DNA of 63,540 nt from Gammaproteobacteria bacterium (GTDB lineage Bacteria > Pseudomonadota > Gammaproteobacteria > Steroidobacterales > Steroidobacteraceae). Positions 32,337-42,040 of the stretch are shown here, piece after piece. The notes beneath the pieces are model-generated. The model did not search any database. It saw nothing but the letters and a program-made list of their open reading frames with translations, and was not told where the DNA came from. Both the position numbers and the translations under genes were made by a program. The DNA is taken from contig JAFAPI010000233.1 in the NCBI GenBank assembly GCA_019247195.1, positions 1 to 63,540 on the forward strand. Direction: 5' to 3'. Numbering within the stretch: the first letter of the stretch is position 1; each line of letters starts with the position of its first letter.

Positions 32337-33179
32337 TCAGGCCGAGCGCCGCGCCCGCCCGGCGCGGGCCGCGCTGCCCCCTGCAGCGCGCTTTCCCCGA
32401 CGCATGCTGTCAGCCAGAAGCTGACGCAAGTCGACAATGTTGGTTTCGGCGGGCGCCGTGTACTCCTCGAGCGGCTGAACCGGGCGTGCCTTGCCGGCGC
32501 TCGCCTTGCGGCGGATGAGGGCGTGGATGGCCGCGGTGAAGTGCTCGGCGTAGGCCGCCGGACGCCACGGATGCGTCATGGAGGCGACCAGCTGCGCGGC
32601 CATCTTGCGCTCTTCGGGTTTGACCTGGCCGCCGGCCGGTGTCTCCAACCCGAGCGCACGCGGCGTGCGCAGCTCGGCCTGCCAGCGTAGCGTGACGAGC
32701 AACAGCAGCGACTCGGAGCTCATGAGCGCGGCCAGGTGCTCCTTGCTGTGCATGACCAGCCGGGCGATCGCGATCACCTCGGCGTTGCGCATCGTGTCGC
32801 GCAGCAGGCCATACACCTTCTCAGCGCGGCCGGTGGGCTCGACGTAGTACGGTTTCTGGAAGGTATAAGGCGGCACTTCCGCGGCCGGAGCGAAGGACTC
32901 GATCTCGATCGTCTGGGTGCGCTTGGGATACGCGGCGCGGATCTCCTCATCGCTCACCACCACGTAGCGCCCCCCGGGCTGCTTCACCCCCTTGACGATG
33001 TCCTGCGGCTTGAGCTCGCGACCGGTGCGCTTGTTGTAGCGCTTGTAGCCGACCGGATCGAGCGAGCGCCGGTCGAGCCACTCGAAGCCGATGCCCGTTT
33101 CCTCGGTCGCCGGATAGAGTGCCACCGGCAGGTGCACCAGGCCGAAGGTGACGGCGCCTTTCCAGACTGCGCGGGCCAT
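32337..33179 (-). CDS. ku: Ku protein (non-homologous end joining)
   Basis: 280 residues, the usual length for bacterial Ku. It opens with MARAVWKGAVTFGLVHLPVA and holds FEWLDRRSLDPVGYKRYNK, YVVVSDEEIRAAYPKRTQTI and MRNAEVIAIARLVMHSKEHL, with a basic C-terminus (RRGKRAAGG, RAGRARRSA). Ku binds DNA ends and recruits LigD. No LigD is in the window. Confidence 0.95.
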   Translation of the reverse strand: MARAVWKGAVTFGLVHLPVALYPATEETGIGFEWLDRRSLDPVGYKRYNKRTGRELKPQDIVKGVKQPGGRYVVVSDEEIRAAYPKRTQTIEIESFAPAAEVPPYTFQKPYYVEPTGRAEKVYGLLRDTMRNAEVIAIARLVMHSKEHLAALMSSESLLLLVTLRWQAELRTPRALGLETPAGGQVKPEERKMAAQLVASMTHPWRPAAYAEHFTAAIHALIRRKASAGKARPVQPLEEYTAPAETNIVDLRQLLADSMRRGKRAAGGSAARAGRARRSA

Positions 33180-33191
33180 GCTCAGTCCCGC

Positions 33192-33380
33192 CTAGCGGCT
33201 CTTGTCGTCGTAGGCACGGCGCGCCTCCTCGACCGACTGCTCCGGTTGCGGCGATCGCCCGGCAGGCGGCTCTGGCTCAGGCGGTGCCCCGCCCTCGAGC
33301 GGGTCGCGGCGACCCTGCCGCGGACGGCCGCGGCTGCCGCGCGGATACTGATCCTCGCCATGGGGGTCATTGGTCGGCAT
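33192..33380 (-). CDS. Small hydrophilic protein (62 aa)
   Basis: 62 residues, rich in Pro, Arg and Glu, beginning MPTNDPHGEDQYPRGSRGRP. Probably disordered. The ATG at 33380 has GGAGAGG upstream and overlaps the end of the XoxJ-like gene by 14 bases, so it is the last gene of the dehydrogenase operon. No family recognised. Confidence 0.5.
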   Translation of the reverse strand: MPTNDPHGEDQYPRGSRGRPRQGRRDPLEGGAPPEPEPPAGRSPQPEQSVEEARRAYDDKSR

Positions 33381-34224
33381 GAGTCCTCTCCGGGGTGCTG
33401 GGTTGCGGGGGCAAGAAGGCCGCGAGGGCCACCGGCAGCTCGGCCGGCTCGGCCAGATCGGTGCGGGGGACGTGATAGGCACGCAGCAGACGGTCGATCG
33501 CGGCGCGCTGCTTGACAAGAGCCGCATCGACGCGCTGCAGCAGCTGCGGAGCATCGCGTCGCACCCCGACGCAGATGAGGTAGCGCATGCGCCATCCCTG
33601 TGCGAACGGCTCGACCGCCTGCAGGTGCAGCGGCACCGGCGCGTGGGCGGCGAAGTAACCCGCCAGCGGTCCCCACACCAGCGCCACATCCACCGCGGAC
33701 TGCGTCACCGCGCGCACGATCGCGGCGGGCGGGTTCGCCTGTTGATAATCGCCATAGAGCGTAAAGCCGCGCACGTTATCGACCAGGCCGCGCGCAGCGA
33801 GCGCGTGCGCGGGCGGGGTGTTCATGGCGTCATCCCCCACCAGCTGCACGCCGATGATGAGGTGACGCAGCCGCGCATCATCCAGCGACAGATCGTGCAG
33901 GCCGCGGTCGGCGCGGCTGACGAACATGTAGCTCGAGGCATAGTACGGCCGCGAGGTGGCCATGCTGCCAAGTCCGGCGACTACGCCCGGCCAGAGATCG
34001 CAGCGCGCCTCCGCGAGTGTATGTCGGGCGAAGCCGCGGCGCTGCGCCCACCAGAGGTAGCGCACCGGCGTATGCAGCTCCCGCGCAAGCAGGCGCACCA
34101 GCTTGTTCTCGAAGCCCTGCTGCGCGCGATTCGAGAACGGCAGGTTGTTAGGATCGGCGCACACGGTCAGGCCGTGGGCGATGCTCCAGGAGGCGCTCAG
34201 CACTAAGAGCAGGAGGAGTCTCAT
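33367..34224 (-). CDS. xoxJ: XoxJ/MoxJ-like quinoprotein-dehydrogenase-associated binding protein
   Basis: 285 residues with a signal peptide (MRLLLLLVLSASWSIAHG) and then LTVCADPNNLPFSNRAQQGF, the hallmark of the periplasmic binding-fold family that always travels with PQQ alcohol dehydrogenases. MoxJ/XoxJ are thought to help activate the dehydrogenase and are not transport proteins. The ATG overlaps the stop of the cytochrome gene (ATGA). Confidence 0.9.
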   Translation of the reverse strand: MRLLLLLVLSASWSIAHGLTVCADPNNLPFSNRAQQGFENKLVRLLARELHTPVRYLWWAQRRGFARHTLAEARCDLWPGVVAGLGSMATSRPYYASSYMFVSRADRGLHDLSLDDARLRHLIIGVQLVGDDAMNTPPAHALAARGLVDNVRGFTLYGDYQQANPPAAIVRAVTQSAVDVALVWGPLAGYFAAHAPVPLHLQAVEPFAQGWRMRYLICVGVRRDAPQLLQRVDAALVKQRAAIDRLLRAYHVPRTDLAEPAELPVALAAFLPPQPSTPERTHADQ

Positions 34225-34805
34225 TGCGGGCCGACGATCGTGGTGCCGTAGTCGTTGCTGGTGTCCGGTGAGGGCGACCAGCCCGGGTCCTGGTCCACGG
34301 CGCGCGGCACGGGTGCCGGGGTCTGCGAGGGCGTGGGACCGTTCTGCGCCGCGAGCGTGCGCGGCAATGACATCGAGCGCACGTAGGCGGCCAGCTCCCA
34401 CAGCTGCGGATCGGGAATCTTGTCCGCCCAGGAGGGCATGCCATTGGGCCGGCCCTCGACGAGGGTCTGGTGGATCTGCTCGAGGCGACTGCCATAGATC
34501 CAGGTGCCATCCATCAGGTCCGGTCCCATGCCGCCGCCGCCGTTGGAGTGGCAACCCGAGCAGTTGAACTGCTGGAACAGCCGCTTGCCGTCGACCACCG
34601 CCTGCGGGTTGTCGTAGTAGGCGAGCGCGCGCGGATCGCGCGGCAGAATCTCGCGATCCACGCCGGGCACGAGCGCGGAGGTACGCACCAGCGGGGCGCC
34701 GGCGACCGGCGGGCCGACGCCGGGCATCGGCGTCTGGGGCGGCTGGCAGGCTGCCAGCGGCAGGAGCAGCAGCAGCCCGGCCTCAATGCGGAAGCGCGAA
34801 CACAT
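34221..34805 (-). CDS. xoxG: Cytochrome c lipoprotein partner of the PQQ dehydrogenase (XoxG-like)
   Basis: 194 residues. The signal ends in a lipobox (LAAC, Cys20), so it is predicted to be lipid-anchored. The single heme site is C82-S-G-C85-H86, with a candidate Met ligand in GRPNGMPSWADK. By position it accepts electrons from the dehydrogenase and passes them on. Its start overlaps the end of the dehydrogenase gene by 23 bases. Confidence 0.88.
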   Translation of the reverse strand: MCSRFRIEAGLLLLLPLAACQPPQTPMPGVGPPVAGAPLVRTSALVPGVDREILPRDPRALAYYDNPQAVVDGKRLFQQFNCSGCHSNGGGGMGPDLMDGTWIYGSRLEQIHQTLVEGRPNGMPSWADKIPDPQLWELAAYVRSMSLPRTLAAQNGPTPSQTPAPVPRAVDQDPGWSPSPDTSNDYGTTIVGPQ

Positions 34806-36651
34806 ACAGCGTGCCTCCGGGGGTGGTGTACTTGGGGAGATCGGCCATCACGTTCACGAAGCCAAGTGCGGCGGATCCGTCGCGCGTATCGACCGGACCG
34901 GAGACCACCGCGCCCGACCAGCCGCCGACGCCCGAGAGCATGGCGATGTACTGGTGCCCGTCGACACCGCGATAGCTGACCGGCTGGCTAATGACGCCGC
35001 TGTCGACCTTGTAACGCCACAGCGCCTGCCCGGTCCGGGCGTCCACCGCCTTGAACCAGCCGTCCATCGTGCCGTAGAAGACCAGCCCGCCGGCGGTCGC
35101 CACCGTGCCGGACCAGATGGGGAAGTTCTCATCGACGACCCACGCCTTGCGCCGGTTGACCGGGTCCCAGGCGGTGAGCTCACCCCGGTGCCCGCCGGGG
35201 CCGGGCTTCATGTGCACGTTGGCGCCGACGTACGGGGTGCCCTCGATGTAGCTCACCTGCAGGTTCAGCCAGTCCATGCAGATGTTCTCGTGCGGAATGT
35301 AGAGCAGGCCGGTCTGCGGACTGAAGCTGCTCGGGTTCCAGTCCTTGGAGCCGGAGGCGGTGGGACAGATGTCCTTCACCTCCTGGTCCATCTTGGTCTC
35401 TTTGTCCGGGTTTACCTCCAGCCGCCCGGACTGCAGGTCCACCCCGCGCGAGGAGTTGACGGGCCCATAGGGATCGGCCGAGAGCACCTGGCCGGTCTTG
35501 CGGTCGATCACGTACACGTAGCCGTTGCGGTCGAGGTGGATCAGCACCTTGCGCATGCTGCCGCCGAAGGGCAGATCGAGCAGCAGCTGCTCGTTGATGC
35601 CGTCGTAGTCGTGCTGGTCGTGCGGACTGAACTGGTAAAACCAGCGCGCGGCGCCGGTGGCCGGGTCGCGCGCGAAGATGCCCGCGGTCCACTTGTTGTC
35701 CCCGGGCCGCTGCTGCGCGTTCCACGGCCCGGGGTTGCCCGTGCCGTGGTAGAGGGTGTCGAGCTCGGCATCGTAGGTGATCCAGCCCCATACGTTGCCG
35801 CCACCGATCTTCCACGCATCGGGTGGCCAGGAGCTGACGCCCAGGTCCTTGCCGCGGTCCATGGCGTAGAACGGGTGGAAGGCCGGCCCGATGAGGACGT
35901 CCGCATCCGGTCCGGTGTTCCAGGCGCGCCACAGCAGCTTGCCGCTCTGCTCATCGAGCGCCGCAATCCAGCCGCGCACGCCCAGCTCGCCGCCGGAGTT
36001 GCCGATATAGACGCGACCCTTGGCCACCAGCGGCGCCATGGTGAGGGTCTCGCCGACGTGAATGTTGCCAAGACGCGTGCGCCACAGGGGGCGTCCGCTC
36101 TTCACGTCCAGCGCGATGGTCTGCCCGTCCAGGGTATTGAAGATGTACTTGCCGTTGCTCACCGTGCCGCCGCGGTTCACCACGTCGCAGCAGGCGACCC
36201 CCTGACTCGCCGGCAGCGGGTTGGGGGCGAAGCGCCACTTGAGGGGCGCGCCGGGCTTGGTGAGATCGAGCGCGTACACGTAGTTCGGGTAGGCGGTGAC
36301 CACGTACAGGGTGTTGTCGGCAATGATCGGCGCGGCCTCCTGCCCCTTGTTCACCCCGAGCGAGAACGAGAAAAGCGGCACGAGGCCCTTGACGTTCTCG
36401 GGCGTGAGCTCGGTCTGGGTGCTGAAGCGGGTCGAGGCGTAGTTCTTGGAGGGCATCGTCCATTGCCCGTCATCGGCCGGCGCGTTGACCGCGCTCGGGG
36501 CGGTTCGACCGGCCTGCGGCGTCGGCGCGGCGAGCGCATGGCCGATCTGCTCGGGCGTGAAGACCTCGCCAGCCGGCACCCCGGGGGGGACGGTCTGGGC
36601 GTGCAGCGCCGGGCACAGGAGCAACAGCAGGGCAACGGTTGGGCGGATCAT
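34783..36651 (-). CDS. xoxF: PQQ-dependent alcohol dehydrogenase, lanthanide-type (XoxF-like)
   Basis: 622 residues with a signal peptide (about 1-19), then an eight-bladed propeller. The vicinal disulfide C154-C155 is in SQGVACCDVVNRG. The active-site segment PHDQHDYDGIN has D348 and D350. The second Asp (D-x-D) is the mark of lanthanide-binding enzymes, whereas calcium enzymes such as MxaF have Ala there. NICMDW near 450 and FPIWSGTVATAGGLVFYGT are further family blocks. The substrate is a primary alcohol, perhaps methanol or longer, but this cannot be read. Followed by XoxG- and XoxJ-like genes. Confidence 0.92.
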   Translation of the reverse strand: MIRPTVALLLLLCPALHAQTVPPGVPAGEVFTPEQIGHALAAPTPQAGRTAPSAVNAPADDGQWTMPSKNYASTRFSTQTELTPENVKGLVPLFSFSLGVNKGQEAAPIIADNTLYVVTAYPNYVYALDLTKPGAPLKWRFAPNPLPASQGVACCDVVNRGGTVSNGKYIFNTLDGQTIALDVKSGRPLWRTRLGNIHVGETLTMAPLVAKGRVYIGNSGGELGVRGWIAALDEQSGKLLWRAWNTGPDADVLIGPAFHPFYAMDRGKDLGVSSWPPDAWKIGGGNVWGWITYDAELDTLYHGTGNPGPWNAQQRPGDNKWTAGIFARDPATGAARWFYQFSPHDQHDYDGINEQLLLDLPFGGSMRKVLIHLDRNGYVYVIDRKTGQVLSADPYGPVNSSRGVDLQSGRLEVNPDKETKMDQEVKDICPTASGSKDWNPSSFSPQTGLLYIPHENICMDWLNLQVSYIEGTPYVGANVHMKPGPGGHRGELTAWDPVNRRKAWVVDENFPIWSGTVATAGGLVFYGTMDGWFKAVDARTGQALWRYKVDSGVISQPVSYRGVDGHQYIAMLSGVGGWSGAVVSGPVDTRDGSAALGFVNVMADLPKYTTPGGTLYVFALPH

Positions 36652-36670
36652 GAGCTCGCTCTTCCAGCAG

Positions 36671-37078
36671 TCATCCAGCGCAGCGCGGCAGCAGCAGCAA
36701 TGCCACGGCGTTCGCGAGCGTGACGAGGGCGAAGCCGCCCCCGAACGCCACGCCCCACAAGGAAAGGAAACACAGCCGCGCGCGCGGATCGTGCGCCCCG
36801 CCCGCCTGCGGCTCGGCCGCCGTCAGCTGATAGCGTTGCCACGCGACCCAGAAGGCCGCGAGCGCGATGAGCACACACACGACGAGCAGCAGCGCCAGGG
36901 CGCCGCCGGTCCAGGGCGTGCCCGGCAGCGGCGCGAGCAGGCGCTGAGTATGGGGAAAGCACGGCCGGCTGGCCCAGGCGTAACCGAGGTTCAGCTGAGC
37001 GAACCAGGCGGCCGGTCCGCCCCAGAGCGCGAAGGCGCCCGCGAGCCGGCCCTGCGGCGCCGCCACGGGCACGTTCAT
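36671..37078 (-). CDS. Small membrane protein of the oxidase operon
   Basis: 135 residues with three hydrophobic spans (LAGAFALWGGPAAWFAQLNL, LALLLVVCVLIALAAFWVAW, and FLSLWGVAFGGGFALVTLAN). It overlaps the subunit III gene by 4 bases (ATGA) and lies 19 bases before the dehydrogenase gene. It could be an extra subunit III-like or accessory protein of the oxidase. No family recognised with confidence. Confidence 0.65.
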   Translation of the reverse strand: MNVPVAAPQGRLAGAFALWGGPAAWFAQLNLGYAWASRPCFPHTQRLLAPLPGTPWTGGALALLLVVCVLIALAAFWVAWQRYQLTAAEPQAGGAHDPRARLCFLSLWGVAFGGGFALVTLANAVALLLLPRCAG

Positions 37079-37686
37079 CGGCCGAACCCCAGGTAGGGGG
37101 TGAGGTAATAGGTGGCGAAAACGAAGAGCCACACGACGTCCACGAAATGCCAGTACAACACTCCGGCGGACACCGACAGCCGGCGCCGCGGACTGAAGTA
37201 GTCGAGCGCGGTCCACAGCAGGATTACCCCGAGCACGGCCACGCCCACCAGCACGTGCGCCATATGGAATCCGGTAGTGGCGAAGTACAGGGAGGCGTAG
37301 CTCGAGTCTCCGAGCCGAAAGGGCTTGGCGTGCCATTCGTAGAACTGCACCGCGGCGAACACCGTGCCCATGATGAACGTCAGCGCAAAACCGAGCAGCG
37401 CCTGTCCGCGCGCGCGCTGCAGCACCCCGTGCTCAGCCCACCACGCGACGAGGCTCGAGGCAAGCAGCAGCAGCGTGTTGGGCAGGGCCAGGTGCAGCGG
37501 CGGGTGCGGCTCGAGCACCCAGCCAGGACCCGCCGCGGCACCGAGGTAGTAATAGGCAAAGAGCAGGTACGCGAACAGCGCACCCTCGCTCGCGATCAGC
37601 GTCGCCACTCCCCACCAGCCCAGGCCGCGGCGCCCAACCGGCCCCACAGGCAGGCTCTGCGGACGGGCCACAGCCACCTCAGCCAT
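37075..37686 (-). CDS. ctaE: Cytochrome c oxidase subunit III
   Basis: 203 residues with about five spans; ASEGALFAYLLFAYYYLGAA, FYEWHAKPF, and TGFHMAHVLVGVAVLG are family blocks, and VLYWHFVDVVWLFVFATYYL is near the C-terminus. It is a short form lacking two N-terminal helices. Its ATG lies 8 bases inside the end of the subunit I gene. Confidence 0.92.
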   Translation of the reverse strand: MAEVAVARPQSLPVGPVGRRGLGWWGVATLIASEGALFAYLLFAYYYLGAAAGPGWVLEPHPPLHLALPNTLLLLASSLVAWWAEHGVLQRARGQALLGFALTFIMGTVFAAVQFYEWHAKPFRLGDSSYASLYFATTGFHMAHVLVGVAVLGVILLWTALDYFSPRRRLSVSAGVLYWHFVDVVWLFVFATYYLTPYLGFGR

Positions 37687-39619
37687 GCGCCGGCTCCCGC
37701 TCGCCCATCTCCGCGCGCGGCCAGAGCCAAACGAGCAGCGCGACGGCGCACAGCAGCGCCCCGATCGCAAACAGCCAGCCGCTCAGGCGCAGCATTGCGA
37801 CAAAGACCAGCGTGAGTCCCACGGCGAGCACGAGCGGCGCGCTCGTGTCCTCGGGCATCTCCAGGATCATGTCCGGCCGCGCGTCCACCGGGGTCGTGCC
37901 CAGGGTCTCGCGGCGCTGCTCGAGCAGCAGCCCTTCCTTCAGCGAGGAGTGCGCACCGGGCTCACCGAGGCGCTCCTCCCAGAGGGGGTGACGCGAGGTC
38001 ACCGTCGGGATGACCGCGAAGTTGTAGGGCGGCGGTGGCGAGGAGACCGACCATTCCAGCGTCGGCGCATCCCACGGATTGGCGCCGGCCCTGGCCCCGC
38101 GGCGCAGACTCAGCACGACGTTGGCGATGAGGAGCAGCACGCCGAGTGCGAAGAGGAATGCTCCCACCGTGGTGATGAGGTTCAGTGTCGTCCAGCCCAT
38201 GTCGGGCGCGTAGGTGTAGACCCGGCGTGGCATGCCGAACAGTCCGGTGAGGTGCATGGGCAGGAAGCCGAGGTTGAAGCCGATGAACAGGGTCCAGAAA
38301 TTCCAGCGGCCGAGGCGCTCATCGAGGAGTCGCCCGGTGAACTTCGGGAACCAGAAGTACACCGCGCCGATGACCGGGAATACATTGATGCCGATCAGCA
38401 CGTAGTGCAGGTGGGCGACCACGAAGTAGGTGTCGGTGAGCTGCCAGTCGACCGGGACGCTCGCGGTCATGAAGCCGGACACTCCGCCGATGACGAACAG
38501 CAGGATCATCGAGGCGAAAAAGAGAAAGGCCGTGGTGATGACCGGGCGCCCGTACCAGATGGTCGCCAGCCAGGCAAACACCGTGAGGGCCGAGGGCACG
38601 GTGATGAGAATGGAAGCGCCGGAGAAAAACGACATGCCGAGCCCCGGCAGCCCGGTGGCGAACATGTGGTGCACCCACACGCCGAATCCCAGCACCATGG
38701 TCGCCACCGTGGCCGCCGCCACCAGCGCATACGCGACGAGGGGCCGCCGGCAGAACACCGGCAGCCCGTCCGAGACCATCCCCATCGCCGGCAGCACGAT
38801 GGCGTACACCCAGGGGTGGCCGAAGATCCAGAACAGGTGCTGCCACAGCAGGTGGTGACCACCGAAGGCCGGGTCGTAGAAATGGGTACCGAACTGGCGA
38901 TCGCACCACAGCAGGAAGAACGCCAGGCTGACCGAGGGCACGACGATGAGGTTGGCCACGTTCGCGGTGAGCGTGCCCCACACCAGGATCGGTACGCGGT
39001 TGAGGGACATGCCGGGGGCGCGGGTGCGGAAGGCCGTGACGATGAAGTTGGCGGCGCCCACCGTGGTGGAGATGCCTAGCAAGATCATGCCCAGCGAGTA
39101 GTAATCCTCGTTGGGACCCGGGTTGTAGTCGCGCAGCGCATACGGGGTGTAGTTGAACCAGCCGTCGTTCGGGCCGTGACCGGTGAGAAATCCCGCGTAA
39201 AGGAACAGCCCGCTGGCGAGATAGATCCAGTAGCTCAGCGCATTGAGGCGCGGGAAGGCCATATCGCGGCTGCCCAGCACGAGCGGCCACAGATAGTTGG
39301 AGAAGCCCGAGAGGATCGGCGAGGCGTAGAGGAAGATCAGCGTCACGCCGTGCATGGTGAACAGCTGATCGTATTGTTCCGGATTGAGCACCCGCAGTTC
39401 CGGCCCGGCGAGCTGCAGTCGCATCAGCAGCGCCTCGAGGCCTCCGATGAGCAGGAAGATGAAGGCGGTGATGATGTAGCGCAGGCCGATCTTCTTGTGA
39501 TCGACGGTGGTGATGAAGCCCTTCAGCCCCGGCGGTGATTCCCACAGAGTGGCGAGGCGCACGGCGTGGGCCCCGCTCACGTGGCCGACGAGAGGCGTGC
39601 GGGCGTCCGCGACCCTCAT
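37679..39619 (-). CDS. ctaD: Cytochrome c oxidase subunit I (unusual HPWVY site)
   Basis: 646 residues with the 12-helix heme-copper core. The heme ligand H90 is in FTMHGVTLIF, the CuB histidine region is FGHPWVYAIVLPAMG (H268, Y272), and VHHMFATGLPGLGMSFFSG follows. The usual Glu of HPEVY is Trp at 270. After residue 490 a C-terminal extension with two or more extra spans is present, like caa3-type enzymes. It overlaps the start of subunit III by 8 bases and the end of subunit II by 4. Confidence 0.95.
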   Translation of the reverse strand: MRVADARTPLVGHVSGAHAVRLATLWESPPGLKGFITTVDHKKIGLRYIITAFIFLLIGGLEALLMRLQLAGPELRVLNPEQYDQLFTMHGVTLIFLYASPILSGFSNYLWPLVLGSRDMAFPRLNALSYWIYLASGLFLYAGFLTGHGPNDGWFNYTPYALRDYNPGPNEDYYSLGMILLGISTTVGAANFIVTAFRTRAPGMSLNRVPILVWGTLTANVANLIVVPSVSLAFFLLWCDRQFGTHFYDPAFGGHHLLWQHLFWIFGHPWVYAIVLPAMGMVSDGLPVFCRRPLVAYALVAAATVATMVLGFGVWVHHMFATGLPGLGMSFFSGASILITVPSALTVFAWLATIWYGRPVITTAFLFFASMILLFVIGGVSGFMTASVPVDWQLTDTYFVVAHLHYVLIGINVFPVIGAVYFWFPKFTGRLLDERLGRWNFWTLFIGFNLGFLPMHLTGLFGMPRRVYTYAPDMGWTTLNLITTVGAFLFALGVLLLIANVVLSLRRGARAGANPWDAPTLEWSVSSPPPPYNFAVIPTVTSRHPLWEERLGEPGAHSSLKEGLLLEQRRETLGTTPVDARPDMILEMPEDTSAPLVLAVGLTLVFVAMLRLSGWLFAIGALLCAVALLVWLWPRAEMGEREPAHG

Positions 39620-40575
39620 TGCAGCTTCTCCAGGTAGGCCACCACGTCGTTCAGTTCCGCGACGCTCAATCCCTGGTTAGGCATCAGGCAACCGGGCTTG
39701 AGTCCCTGTGGATTCTCGATCCAGCCGCCGAGGGCACCGGCCCCGTTGGTCAGCACCGCCGCGCCGATCAGGTGGCGGCCGGCCAGATGCGACAGGTCCG
39801 GGGCACTGCGCGCTCCGGCGGTGGTACCGCGCACCGCATGGCAGCTGCCGCAGCGGAACTCGAGCAGCGCCCGGCCGTGCCGCTCCGCATCACTCACCGC
39901 CTGGGGCGCCGGCTGCAGCTGCCGGGCGCGCCAGCGTGCAAACTCGGCGGGCGGGTCGGCGATGATTTCCAGCCCCATGTGCGCGTGCTGCCAGCCACAG
40001 TACTCAGTGCACTGGCCGCGGTAGTGACCCGCCCGCCGCGCCTGTATCCAGCCGAGATTGGTCTGCCCGGGGATGGTGTCCGTCTTGCCCGTGAGCTTGG
40101 GCACCCAGAAGCTGTGGATCACGTCCGCCGCGTGGAGGCGCACGAGCACCGGCGCGCCGACCGGGATGTGGATCTCGTTGGCGGTGGTGAAGGTATTCGC
40201 TGCCTCATCGGCCGCATAGGTGACTTCCCACCACCACTGGTGCCCGGTGATGTCCAGCACCAGTGCGGGCCGGCCGGCGGGAGTCGAGGCGGCGCCGAGG
40301 GCGACCACGGTCCACACCAGCGCCACCAGCAGCGGCACCAGCGAAATGCCCACTCCAACCCGGATCCAGCTCAGGCCGCTCGCCCCGCGCTGCGGGGGCA
40401 CGGTGGTGAGATCCGTGACGCGCGCGGCCGCGCGCCGCACACCCTGCCACAGCAGCGCGCCGATCACGACGCACACCACCACCGAGACGATCAGCGTGTA
40501 CCACGTCAGGGGCAGGATGATGTCAGCCCGCGCGCCGCTGGCACTGAGATAGCCGAGCGGTGGCGGGGTACTCAT
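39616..40575 (-). CDS. ctaC: Cytochrome c oxidase subunit II with fused cytochrome c
   Basis: 319 residues. Two N-terminal spans, then the CuA domain with H154, C189, E191, C193, H197 and M200 (QCTEYCGWQHAHMG). A C-terminal cytochrome c domain has C242-G-S-C245-H246 and a Met in CLMPNQGL. The fused heme makes this a caa3-type enzyme that can accept electrons from a periplasmic carrier. Overlaps subunit I by 4 bases (ATGA). Confidence 0.95.
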   Translation of the reverse strand: MSTPPPLGYLSASGARADIILPLTWYTLIVSVVVCVVIGALLWQGVRRAAARVTDLTTVPPQRGASGLSWIRVGVGISLVPLLVALVWTVVALGAASTPAGRPALVLDITGHQWWWEVTYAADEAANTFTTANEIHIPVGAPVLVRLHAADVIHSFWVPKLTGKTDTIPGQTNLGWIQARRAGHYRGQCTEYCGWQHAHMGLEIIADPPAEFARWRARQLQPAPQAVSDAERHGRALLEFRCGSCHAVRGTTAGARSAPDLSHLAGRHLIGAAVLTNGAGALGGWIENPQGLKPGCLMPNQGLSVAELNDVVAYLEKLQ

Positions 40576-41318
40576 GTGGCCGGCGGCGCATCGAGCGTAC
40601 GACGCAGGCGATCCAGCGCGCGCAGCGCGACCCACAGGAACAGCGCGATTCCCGGCACCCACATGAGCACGCCGCCGAGCTGCTGATCCATGAGGGGCGC
40701 GAGTCCCCACGCCTGAGTACTCGTCAGGTGGGCAAAGAACAGCGGATGTTGCGCGCAGGTCAGTACCGCGCCGAGCAATCCCATCTGCATCGAGCTCGCC
40801 GTTCCTGCCGCCATCGCGTCGAGACTCAGCTCGGCACCGCCGTGCAGGAGTTCGCGCCACAGACCGAGCGCGCTGCCGAACACGGTCACGTGCATCGCCC
40901 AATAAGCCAGCGTGGAGCTGAACGTCGCATCGTACGGACGCGGCATGTGCCAGAACCACAGCGCCAGCAGAAAGGCGAGTGCGGCGCCCCACAGGCGCAG
41001 GCGGCCGCCGCGGTGCGGCGGCGCCGGCAGGCTGAGCGCGAGCAGCGGTGCGGCACATAGGACCAGCACCATGTGCTGGGCGATGCGTGCGGCAAAGAGC
41101 GCCACCGACAGCGCGCAGAGCGGCGAGAGCAGTGCCGCGGCGGTGACCAACCAGCCGGCGGCGGCAACCGGACGCAGCGCCCGCGCCGTGAGGCGCAGGT
41201 GCACGGCCCCGAGCGCGAGCAGCGCACCGATCAGCACCGGGTCCAGGTTGAAGCGGCTGATGAGCGTGCCGGGCACGGGCGGCAGCCCGCAGTACGGCAG
41301 CGCGGCACCCACCACCAC
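40572..41318 (-). CDS. ctaG: Cytochrome c oxidase assembly factor CtaG (caa3 type)
   Basis: About 248 residues with about seven membrane spans. Blocks include ARIAQHMVLVLCAAPLLALS, LALWFWHMPRPYDATF and MDQQLGGVLMWVPG. This membrane family is needed for copper/heme assembly of caa3 oxidases and differs from the soluble Cox11-type CtaG. The start is uncertain; a GTG at 41318 is chosen, 7 bases after the preceding stop. The stop overlaps the subunit II ATG by 4 bases. Confidence 0.88.
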   Translation of the reverse strand: MVVGAALPYCGLPPVPGTLISRFNLDPVLIGALLALGAVHLRLTARALRPVAAAGWLVTAAALLSPLCALSVALFAARIAQHMVLVLCAAPLLALSLPAPPHRGGRLRLWGAALAFLLALWFWHMPRPYDATFSSTLAYWAMHVTVFGSALGLWRELLHGGAELSLDAMAAGTASSMQMGLLGAVLTCAQHPLFFAHLTSTQAWGLAPLMDQQLGGVLMWVPGIALFLWVALRALDRLRRTLDAPPAT

Positions 41319-41325
41319 GTCAGCC

Positions 41326-41763
41326 TCAGCTCTTGCGGGGCGTACCGTCCGCCACGAAGGCCTCGAGCGCGGCCTCGACGACCTCCTGGTCCTGGTCGAC
41401 CGTGCCGCCGCTCGCCCCGACCGCGCCCACGACCGTGTCACCGCTTTTGATGGGCAGGCCGCCGGCGAAGATCACCACGCGCTCGTGGTTGGTCGTATGG
41501 ATGCCGAACAGGGGTTTATGCGCGGCCGCCATCTTGCCCAGCTCCTCGGTGGACATCTCGAACGCCCGGGCGGTCCACGCCTTGTCGATGGAGATGTCGA
41601 TGCTGCCGAGCCAGGCACCGTCCATGCGGGCATGGGCGACCAGGTTGCCGCCGGCGTCAACGACGGCGAGGTTGTAGGGAATGCCGAGTTCCTCGGCCTT
41701 GCGCTCGCCCGCCTCGATAATGCGTCGCGCGTCGCGCAGACCGACCGAAGTGATCTGTTGCAT
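41326..41763 (-). CDS. GlcG/HbpS family heme-binding-type protein
   Basis: 145 residues. The Pfam GlcG/HbpS pattern is clear: AERKAEELG-like opening helix, LAVVDAGGNLVAHARMDGAW, then GGLPIKSGDTVVGAVGASGG. The family includes heme-binding HbpS and unknown proteins of PQQ alcohol-dehydrogenase loci. As the first gene of the operon it may bind heme or a cofactor, but it has no signal peptide. ATG start. Confidence 0.88.
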   Translation of the reverse strand: MQQITSVGLRDARRIIEAGERKAEELGIPYNLAVVDAGGNLVAHARMDGAWLGSIDISIDKAWTARAFEMSTEELGKMAAAHKPLFGIHTTNHERVVIFAGGLPIKSGDTVVGAVGASGGTVDQDQEVVEAALEAFVADGTPRKS

Positions 41764-41778
41764 GCTCGTCTGCCCCCA

Positions 41779-41825
41779 TGTGTCTCGGATCAGACACAGG
41801 GTGCCATCGCCTGACCTACTCAGGC
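41779..41825. promoter_or_regulatory. Two inverted repeats upstream of the oxidase/dehydrogenase operon
   Basis: TGTGTCT-CGGATC-AGACACA at 41779-41798 (7-base arms) and GCCTGA-CCTAC-TCAGGC at 41809-41825 (6-base arms). They lie 16 and 46 bases upstream of the first ATG of the operon (41763). Arms of 6-7 bases with 5-6 base spacers fit dimeric repressor or activator sites. Alternatively, the second could be a terminator of the DUF3309 gene. No factor could be named. Confidence 0.4.
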
Positions 41826-41887
41826 TGTCAGAATTACGGCGGAGGACGGGTAGTCCGCCGGCCGCAGGGAGGCCGTGCAGCTCGCGC

Positions 41888-42040
41888 TCAGATCGCGCGC
41901 ATCAACCACAGCACCAACAAGACCAACAGCACCAGGCCGATGCCGCCGCTCGGGTAATAGCCCCAGCCGGTGCTGTAAGGCCATGCGGGGAGCGCGCCGA
42001 TCAGCAGCAGCACGAGGACGATGAGCAGGATGGTAATCAT
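41888..42040 (-). CDS. DUF3309 small membrane protein
   Basis: 50 residues: MITILLIVLVLLLIGALPAW, then PYSTGWGYYPSGGIGLVLLL and VLWLMRAI. Matches the DUF3309 family of two-span peptides, commonly upregulated in stress. AGGAGTGACACC precedes the ATG. Confidence 0.9.
   Translation of the reverse strand: MITILLIVLVLLLIGALPAWPYSTGWGYYPSGGIGLVLLVLLVLWLMRAI

Follow-up and report, generated by a model that had tools for sequence, protein, structure and literature searches.

The window analysed here is the whole of contig C246 (JAFAPI010000233.1, 63,540 nucleotides) from the draft genome of a gammaproteobacterium, and the element of interest is a minus-strand gene run with a XoxF-like pyrroloquinoline quinone (PQQ) alcohol dehydrogenase beside the genes of a caa3-type oxidase. 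Eleven genes follow one another in the order hbpS, ctaG, cox2 (with CuA and cytochrome c domains), cox1, cox3, a three-span protein, xoxF, a cytochrome c gene, xoxJ, a 62-residue open reading frame (ORF) and ku. The junctions from hbpS to the 62-residue ORF are, in order, a gap of 7 bases, overlaps of 4, 4, 8 and 4, a gap of 19, and overlaps of 23, 4 and 14. An earlier note on this DNA had described the gene content and tight spacing of positions 33192-41763, and both were confirmed, the families by Pfam and NCBIfam profiles and the spacing by the junctions (overlaps 4-23, gaps 7 and 19). The complete alcohol-to-oxygen gene set that it proposed was also recovered, with families for XoxF, the cytochrome, COX1-3 and CtaG all present. 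The run extends past the nine or ten genes of that note: the eleventh gene, ku (PF02735, window 32337-33179), was missing from its list and starts 12 bases past the 62-residue ORF. The spacing suggests a single transcript for the run, which may extend into this DNA-repair gene since ku lies so close. The locus is likely to be an operon for a short respiratory chain, in which an xoxF3-like gene stands beside a type a-II caa3 oxidase with a variant COX1.

All genes of the run lie on the minus strand. The HbpS/GlcG-like gene comes first (41326-41763; PF03928, 145.7 bits), and an HbpS-like gene likewise precedes ctaG in L055, L056, L057, L058, L184 and L240. The caa3-type assembly factor gene ctaG (40572-41318; Caa3_CtaG, PF09678, 86.5 bits) has a GTG start that was assigned by reading. 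The cox2 product (39616-40575; PF00116 and PF00034) carries the CuA motif CTEYCGWQHAHM and the heme motif CGSCH. The heme-copper oxidase subunit I gene cox1, with a C-terminal extension (37679-39619), matches PF00115 with 489.7 bits; against TIGR02891 it scores 668.7 bits, slightly below the cut-off of 670.75. Then follow cox3 (37075-37686; PF00510, 114.3 bits) and the three-span protein (36671-37078), for which Pfam and NCBIfam gave no family. Its residues C40 and C133 are conserved in all 18 aligned rows; possible roles for this pair are copper binding and a disulfide bond. The dehydrogenase gene xoxF (34783-36651) precedes a cytochrome c lipoprotein gene (34221-34805; PF13442, 52.4 bits; heme motif CSGCH, lipobox LAAC), whose product presumably plays the XoxG role. 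The XoxJ-like periplasmic binding protein of the MoxJ/XoxJ kind (33367-34224) scores 259.6 bits with TIGR03871 (cut-off 212.15) and 126.8 bits with the XoxJ structure 6onp in the Protein Data Bank (PDB). The 62-residue ORF (33192-33380) has no Pfam or NCBIfam family.

The XoxF protein belongs to the PQQ methanol/ethanol dehydrogenase family (TIGR03075, 606.6 bits, cut-off 480.05), and its best PDB match is 4mae from Methylacidiphilum (607.1 bits). Comparison with solved XoxF and MxaF enzymes showed that the metal ligands (Glu, Asn), both Asp residues and the Cys pair are all kept. The Asp-Tyr-Asp at residues 348-350 (35602-35610), which holds the catalytic and the lanthanide-type Asp, lines up with 4mae; whereas the MxaF structure 4tqo has Ala at the lanthanide-type position. 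The metal bound is probably a lanthanide. In the XoxF tree the window protein falls in a 72-row clade (support 98, starred) together with acidobacterial and gemmatimonad loci, and 4mae, 6oc5 and 4tqo lie outside it. Thus 4mae shares the metal and PQQ residues of the window XoxF but not its clade; we take the clade name of 4mae to be XoxF2. The window enzyme appears to be of the kind called XoxF3, and is termed XoxF3-like here, as the tree held no sequence typed XoxF3 in print. Nesting of the window-type XoxF among XoxF enzymes with the other oxidase was seen in the best tree; the alternative gave p-AU (approximately unbiased test) 0.0696, and the nesting was not adopted. A cox-linked XoxF-like enzyme with Ser in place of the lanthanide-type Asp was observed in L035 (9233-10996).

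Linkage of xoxF and cox genes was surveyed in the best 80 of 561 relatives from a genome-collection scan with a 9-row XoxF alignment (the best-80 loci), using the window proteins as tblastn queries for the cox genes. COX1 (at least 40% identity) was present in the fetched stretch of 67 loci: downstream of xoxF in 54 and upstream in 12, always in the same direction, and in the opposite direction in one. The gap between xoxF and cox1 was 1073-3691 bases over all 67. Twelve stretches were cut short, including L054, which has no COX1 within 10 kb upstream and 5.7 kb downstream; L069 (Phenylobacterium deserti) has no COX1 despite ample flank. Because short contigs can show a linked gene but not its absence, the count was repeated on loci flanked by 7 kb or more on each side. 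There were 58 of these, and in 57 of them cox1 was linked, 1-4 kb from xoxF. The genome search proposed in the earlier note thus bore out the linkage. Its view of the arrangement as unusual did not hold up, since the closest XoxF relatives generally have a cox block next to the gene, and the pairing is in print in the available text of PMC4013037 and PMC10875860.

The linkage is conserved over several classes and phyla, in differing gene orders. The upstream type, to which the window belongs, has the order (hbpS)-ctaG-cox2-cox1-cox3-three-span-(cytochrome c)-xoxF-cytochrome c-xoxJ. Its 12 cases comprise nine Alphaproteobacteria (sphingomonads and others), two gammaproteobacterial metagenome-assembled genomes (MAGs) and one MAG titled Deltaproteobacteria. 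An extra cytochrome c gene between the three-span gene and xoxF occurs in 10 of these 12 loci, but not in the window, L059 or L060. The downstream type was found in Mesorhizobium, Methylobacterium, Azospirillum, Massilia, Lysobacter, Gemmatimonadota and Pyrinomonadaceae; L185 and L241-L243 also have the cox block downstream of xoxF. The closest gammaproteobacterial relatives by XoxF in the best-80 set are the MAGs RYN_603, RYN_607, CP_BE_RX_13 and RYN_606. Among 398 Pseudomonadota genomes (own included), nine carry XoxF at E<=1e-165 and 39 carry COX1 at E<=1e-140. Such a XoxF stands beside COX1 in seven of the eight genomes other than our own, and the eighth (G508) is without COX1 at E<=1e-140. 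COX1 was found at E<=1e-130 in 10 of 296 genomes of the same taxonomic order (own included), and at E<=1e-200 in 6 of 396 genomes of the order of G604. The module is therefore patchy, as few genomes per order or phylum carry COX1 or XoxF at these thresholds. Two further arrangements were observed. L053 (3213-14522), a gammaproteobacterial MAG, has two oxidase blocks on one contig: one with Trp at the position of the D-channel Glu (Trp-type) upstream of xoxF, and a second (45% COX1 identity) downstream on the opposite strand that ends at the contig end. In L059 the module is immediately preceded by a pair of canonical COX1 and COX3 genes (8-2460) with the same orientation.

The window COX2 has the caa3 trait, a CuA domain with a fused cytochrome c. 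COX1 has 646 residues with a hydrophobic stretch at 612-630, and gave no COX4 family match; a CtaF/COX4 fusion is the a-II trait. In the relative L188, COX4 (PF12270) is sub-threshold, with 19.8 against 26.9 bits. According to the available text of PMC3084760, the D-channel comprises Asp124, Asn199, Asn113, Asn131, Tyr35, Ser134, Ser193 and Glu278, and the K-channel Lys354, Thr351, Ser291 and Tyr280. The window COX1 keeps Tyr35, Asn113, Asp124, Asn131, Ser134, Asn199, Tyr280 and Ser291, and has Thr for Ser193 and Ser for Thr351. Moreover, residue 270 (38810-38812) is Trp at the Glu278 position, where the D-channel ends, and residue 346 (38582-38584) is Thr at the Lys354 position of the K-channel. 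Asp124, Glu278 and Lys354 are all present in a mycobacterial COX1 of solved structure, which aligns to the window protein without gaps at these sites. The alignment columns were assigned to residues by motifs that we assume to mark them. Both A1 heme-copper oxidase residues, Glu278 and Lys354, are thus replaced (Trp, Thr). The window motif is IFGHPWVY, with no Tyr-Ser before His-Pro, which we take to be the exact place of the A2 tyrosine. The A2 trait, a Tyr for the D-channel Glu in the available text of PMC3084760, is therefore also absent.

These changes extend to the relatives. Seventy COX1 proteins were scored in the best-80 loci and the window, and five partial rows remained unscored. All 66 module-family proteins lack Lys354 (Gln, Ala or Thr instead), and 64 of them also lack Asp124 or Glu278. 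In 13 of them position 278 is Trp and Asp124 is retained; in 51 it is position 124 that has changed, to Asn, Ser, Ala or Thr, and Glu278 is retained; two keep an acid at both positions. The remaining four scored proteins from these loci have all three canonical residues (Asp, Glu, Lys). Trp-type COX1 amounts to 25 rows including one exact duplicate, with Ala, Thr, Ser or Gln at the Lys354 position. All 25 carry Glu62 in helix I (39434-39436 in the window); elsewhere this column is Glu in 5 and Asp in 4 of 84 rows. An effect of the residue changes on proton uptake or pumping is an inference from such alignments. A literature search found no paper joining XoxF or methanol dehydrogenase with proton channels among the matches listed; PMC6277846 was considered and discarded, as its 'proton channel' is a MotA/TolQ/ExbB protein.

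A COX1 tree of 105 rows was reconstructed; the set excluded 18 loci of the Mesorhizobium type, six that were duplicates or superseded, and COX1 below 420 residues. Its rows were gathered by likeness to the window COX1, and the canonical outgroup is small (4 rows). The other 101 rows form three clades. The Trp clade has 21 rows (support 84; 97, starred, in the thinned set). The second clade, of 47 rows mostly without Asp124, includes 41 XoxF-linked and 6 unlinked members. The third, of 33 rows, has an acid at 124 and 278, yet no Lys354; L034 is XoxF-linked there, and near the oxidase of L231 lies a XoxF-like gene of 41% identity. Lys354 is missing from all 101 rows, and its loss is therefore probably older than the module. 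Four XoxF-linked loci (L034, L109, L116 and L196) keep an acid at 124 and Glu278. Among 24 distinct Trp-type COX1 proteins, 18 have XoxF in the same stretch, three do not and three are at contig ends (L224, L226 and L233).

Linkage was then set against the D-channel for 94 rows, without the canonical four, a single duplicate and the six whose linkage was unclear: 53 were linked with a broken channel, 4 linked with an intact one, 7 unlinked and broken, and 30 unlinked and intact. The proposal that D-channel loss goes with XoxF linkage failed on five independent pairs on starred branches, which showed no channel difference in a mean of 4.9 (200 pairings); the loss is thus a clade-level pattern and not one of linkage as such. 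The idea that the oxidase is unique to XoxF was also rejected, as D-channel-broken oxidases without a XoxF match in the fetched stretch occur in L186, L187, L190-L194 and also L240. Grouping tests were run on thinned sets, which numbered 67 and 66 rows when the mycobacterial reference is counted. Two separate oxidase recruitments were not upheld, since the Trp and Asp124-loss clades as one group were not rejected (p-AU 0.254); a grouping test that did reject it (p 0.000127) was set aside because its group omitted four nested acid-at-124 members. In L188 and L189 the oxidase block lies upstream of xoxF with ctaG between and is of the Asp124-loss type, so a given gene order does not always go with one oxidase type. 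Some Trp-type oxidases that lack XoxF have other neighbours: in L186 (11435-13216) and L187 (6280-8277) a fusion of the three-span protein to a protein with three cytochrome c domains, and in L187 (15115-17193) and L240 (4671-6509) a thiamine-diphosphate enzyme gene.

The proposed short chain would work as follows. A periplasmic XoxF with PQQ and probably a lanthanide would oxidise a small alcohol, probably methanol. The cytochrome c lipoprotein would take electrons from XoxF and hand them on to COX2, with its cytochrome c and CuA, and from there they would reach the heme and CuB of COX1, where O2 would be reduced. Protons probably enter the COX1 active site by a non-textbook route, because the D-channel ends in Trp and the K-channel Lys is lost. 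The oxidase may therefore conserve less energy, or conserve it by another route. The linkage would provide a ready-made alcohol-to-oxygen chain whose partners could be expressed together; moreover, the missing channel residues make the energy yield of module carriers a directly testable question, and the COX1 variants are naturally occurring equivalents of the channel mutants long studied in cytochrome c oxidase.

Several points weigh against this interpretation. It rests on sequence analysis. Fae was not found in the own genome, so classical tetrahydromethanopterin (H4MPT) methylotrophy is not supported and the substrate may be another alcohol. The best-80 loci are the best XoxF matches, and their linkage rate is therefore not that of XoxF at large; for example, among 20 stretches fetched around the best hits in the same order, those with XoxF-like genes of 43-51% identity (L038-L051) showed no cox genes. 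Nor does the oxidase always come with XoxF, as the Trp-type COX1 of L186, L187 and L240 is without XoxF in the fetched 20 kb. The B-family ba3 oxidases still pump without the canonical channel residues, so that missing residues are no proof of lost pumping.

The own genome bears on whether the oxidase serves XoxF in particular. It is a 3.18-Mb draft of 257 contigs, 92.24% complete, and no second PF00115 heme-copper oxidase was found in it; cytochrome bd and bc1-type cytochrome b genes are present. The earlier note's 'dedicated' oxidase thus went beyond the evidence, and its 'self-contained' module was too strong, because the heme A synthase CtaA and PqqE (above cut-off) are both encoded on other contigs. 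The oxidase may contain heme A, for which the genome has the CtaA gene. Contig C82 carries a second XoxF-like gene, and the 19 kb fetched there showed no cox genes. Unless the assembly lacks the usual oxidase, this one may work for the entire chain. In the extreme form of this view, it is a general terminal oxidase fed mainly by bc1 via cytochrome c, and xoxF merely shares the operon. We hold this to be a real but minority possibility: the sole PF00115 match and the bc1-type cytochrome b speak for it, whereas the genome is incomplete and in many contigs, and many genomes of the genus sample have at least two COX1 matches. In that sample, 38 of 41 genomes (own included) have at least one PF00115 match (range 0-10, fragments counted). 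Moreover, a further COX1, of the canonical kind, lies near the module in four best-80 loci, and the xoxF linkage was retained through several gene orders.

A different concern is the coupling. The oxidase might be non-pumping, and maybe take up no chemical protons from the cytoplasm either, acting as an electron sink and not as a coupling site. Single changes at these channel sites block proton uptake or pumping in model oxidases, and the window has two of them (Glu278 to Trp, Lys354 to Thr); the other XoxF-linked clade mostly lacks Asp124 and Lys354, and the Glu62 of all Trp-type rows could serve another path. However, the rest of the window D-channel (Tyr35, Asn113, Asp124, Asn131, Ser134, Asn199) is intact, which would be odd in a dead channel, and the 33 third-clade oxidases without Lys354 keep an acid at 124 and 278. 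We consider the sink unlikely. A broader proposal, which we regard as speculative and rather improbable, is that XoxF-serving oxidases as a whole left the textbook proton machinery, with Trp for the gating Glu in one clade, the entry Asp124 mostly lost in the other and Lys354 missing from both. They would then be sinks that pump little or nothing, or would use a new route with Glu62 as a candidate. If that were true, many soil bacteria would gain much less energy from lanthanide alcohol oxidation than has been assumed. That the assembly joined two operons by mistake, conceivable in a 257-contig draft, is hardly credible and was ruled out by related loci, since the same gene order recurs in the isolate Sphingomonas sp. 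Root710 (L055) and in the single-contig genome G604 (L184).

The preferred short-chain reading has clear precedents. Type a-II COX operons often hold PQQ dehydrogenases, for example methanol dehydrogenase, according to the available text of PMC4013037 (2014), and cox genes beside a PQQ dehydrogenase are shared with the window. COX1 there is fused to CtaF/COX4, the type was reported in alphaproteobacteria and several betaproteobacteria, and the main text of that paper has no 'channel' words. In the available text of PMC10875860 (2024), xoxF3 occurs with CoxI, CoxII, CoxIII, CtaG, XoxG and XoxJ in 12 Acidobacteria genomes, the same gene set as in the window; most of those clusters have a small hypothetical gene between CoxIII and CtaG. 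The window differs in its upstream cox block, its HbpS-like gene and the Trp at Glu278. According to that paper, an earlier mini-review had already noted a few xoxF3 operons that contain cox and ctaG, and its main text has no words starting with 'proton' or 'caa3'. A figure legend in PMC11845868 lists cox and CtaG within xoxF clusters; PMC6431628 covers alphaproteobacterial oxidase operons, and PQQ and methanol are unmentioned in its available text. PMC8239418 (2021), whose available section concerns archaeal COX1, gives seven independent K-channel losses in family A under one of the two scenarios that it weighs and maps D-channel variants; 'PQQ' and 'methanol' do not occur in its main text, and the present COX1 variants may figure in its supplementary figures. 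The xoxF-cox linkage is therefore real, conserved and already described; the gene order and the proton-channel state of COX1 appear to be new.

Other scans added little. A sigma-70 scan gave 0 sites against a mean of 0.5 in shuffles, too few expected to inform on promoters, and nothing was found by Rfam and tRNA scans of the window or a tandem-repeat scan of 33000-42000. At the distal end of the run, ku had no match across the best-80 loci and the 62-residue ORF had weak matches in 6 of them. Neither was therefore counted as a module part, and the 62-residue ORF probably lies outside the module. A ku match (28%) was seen in L240, about 3 kb from the oxidase genes.

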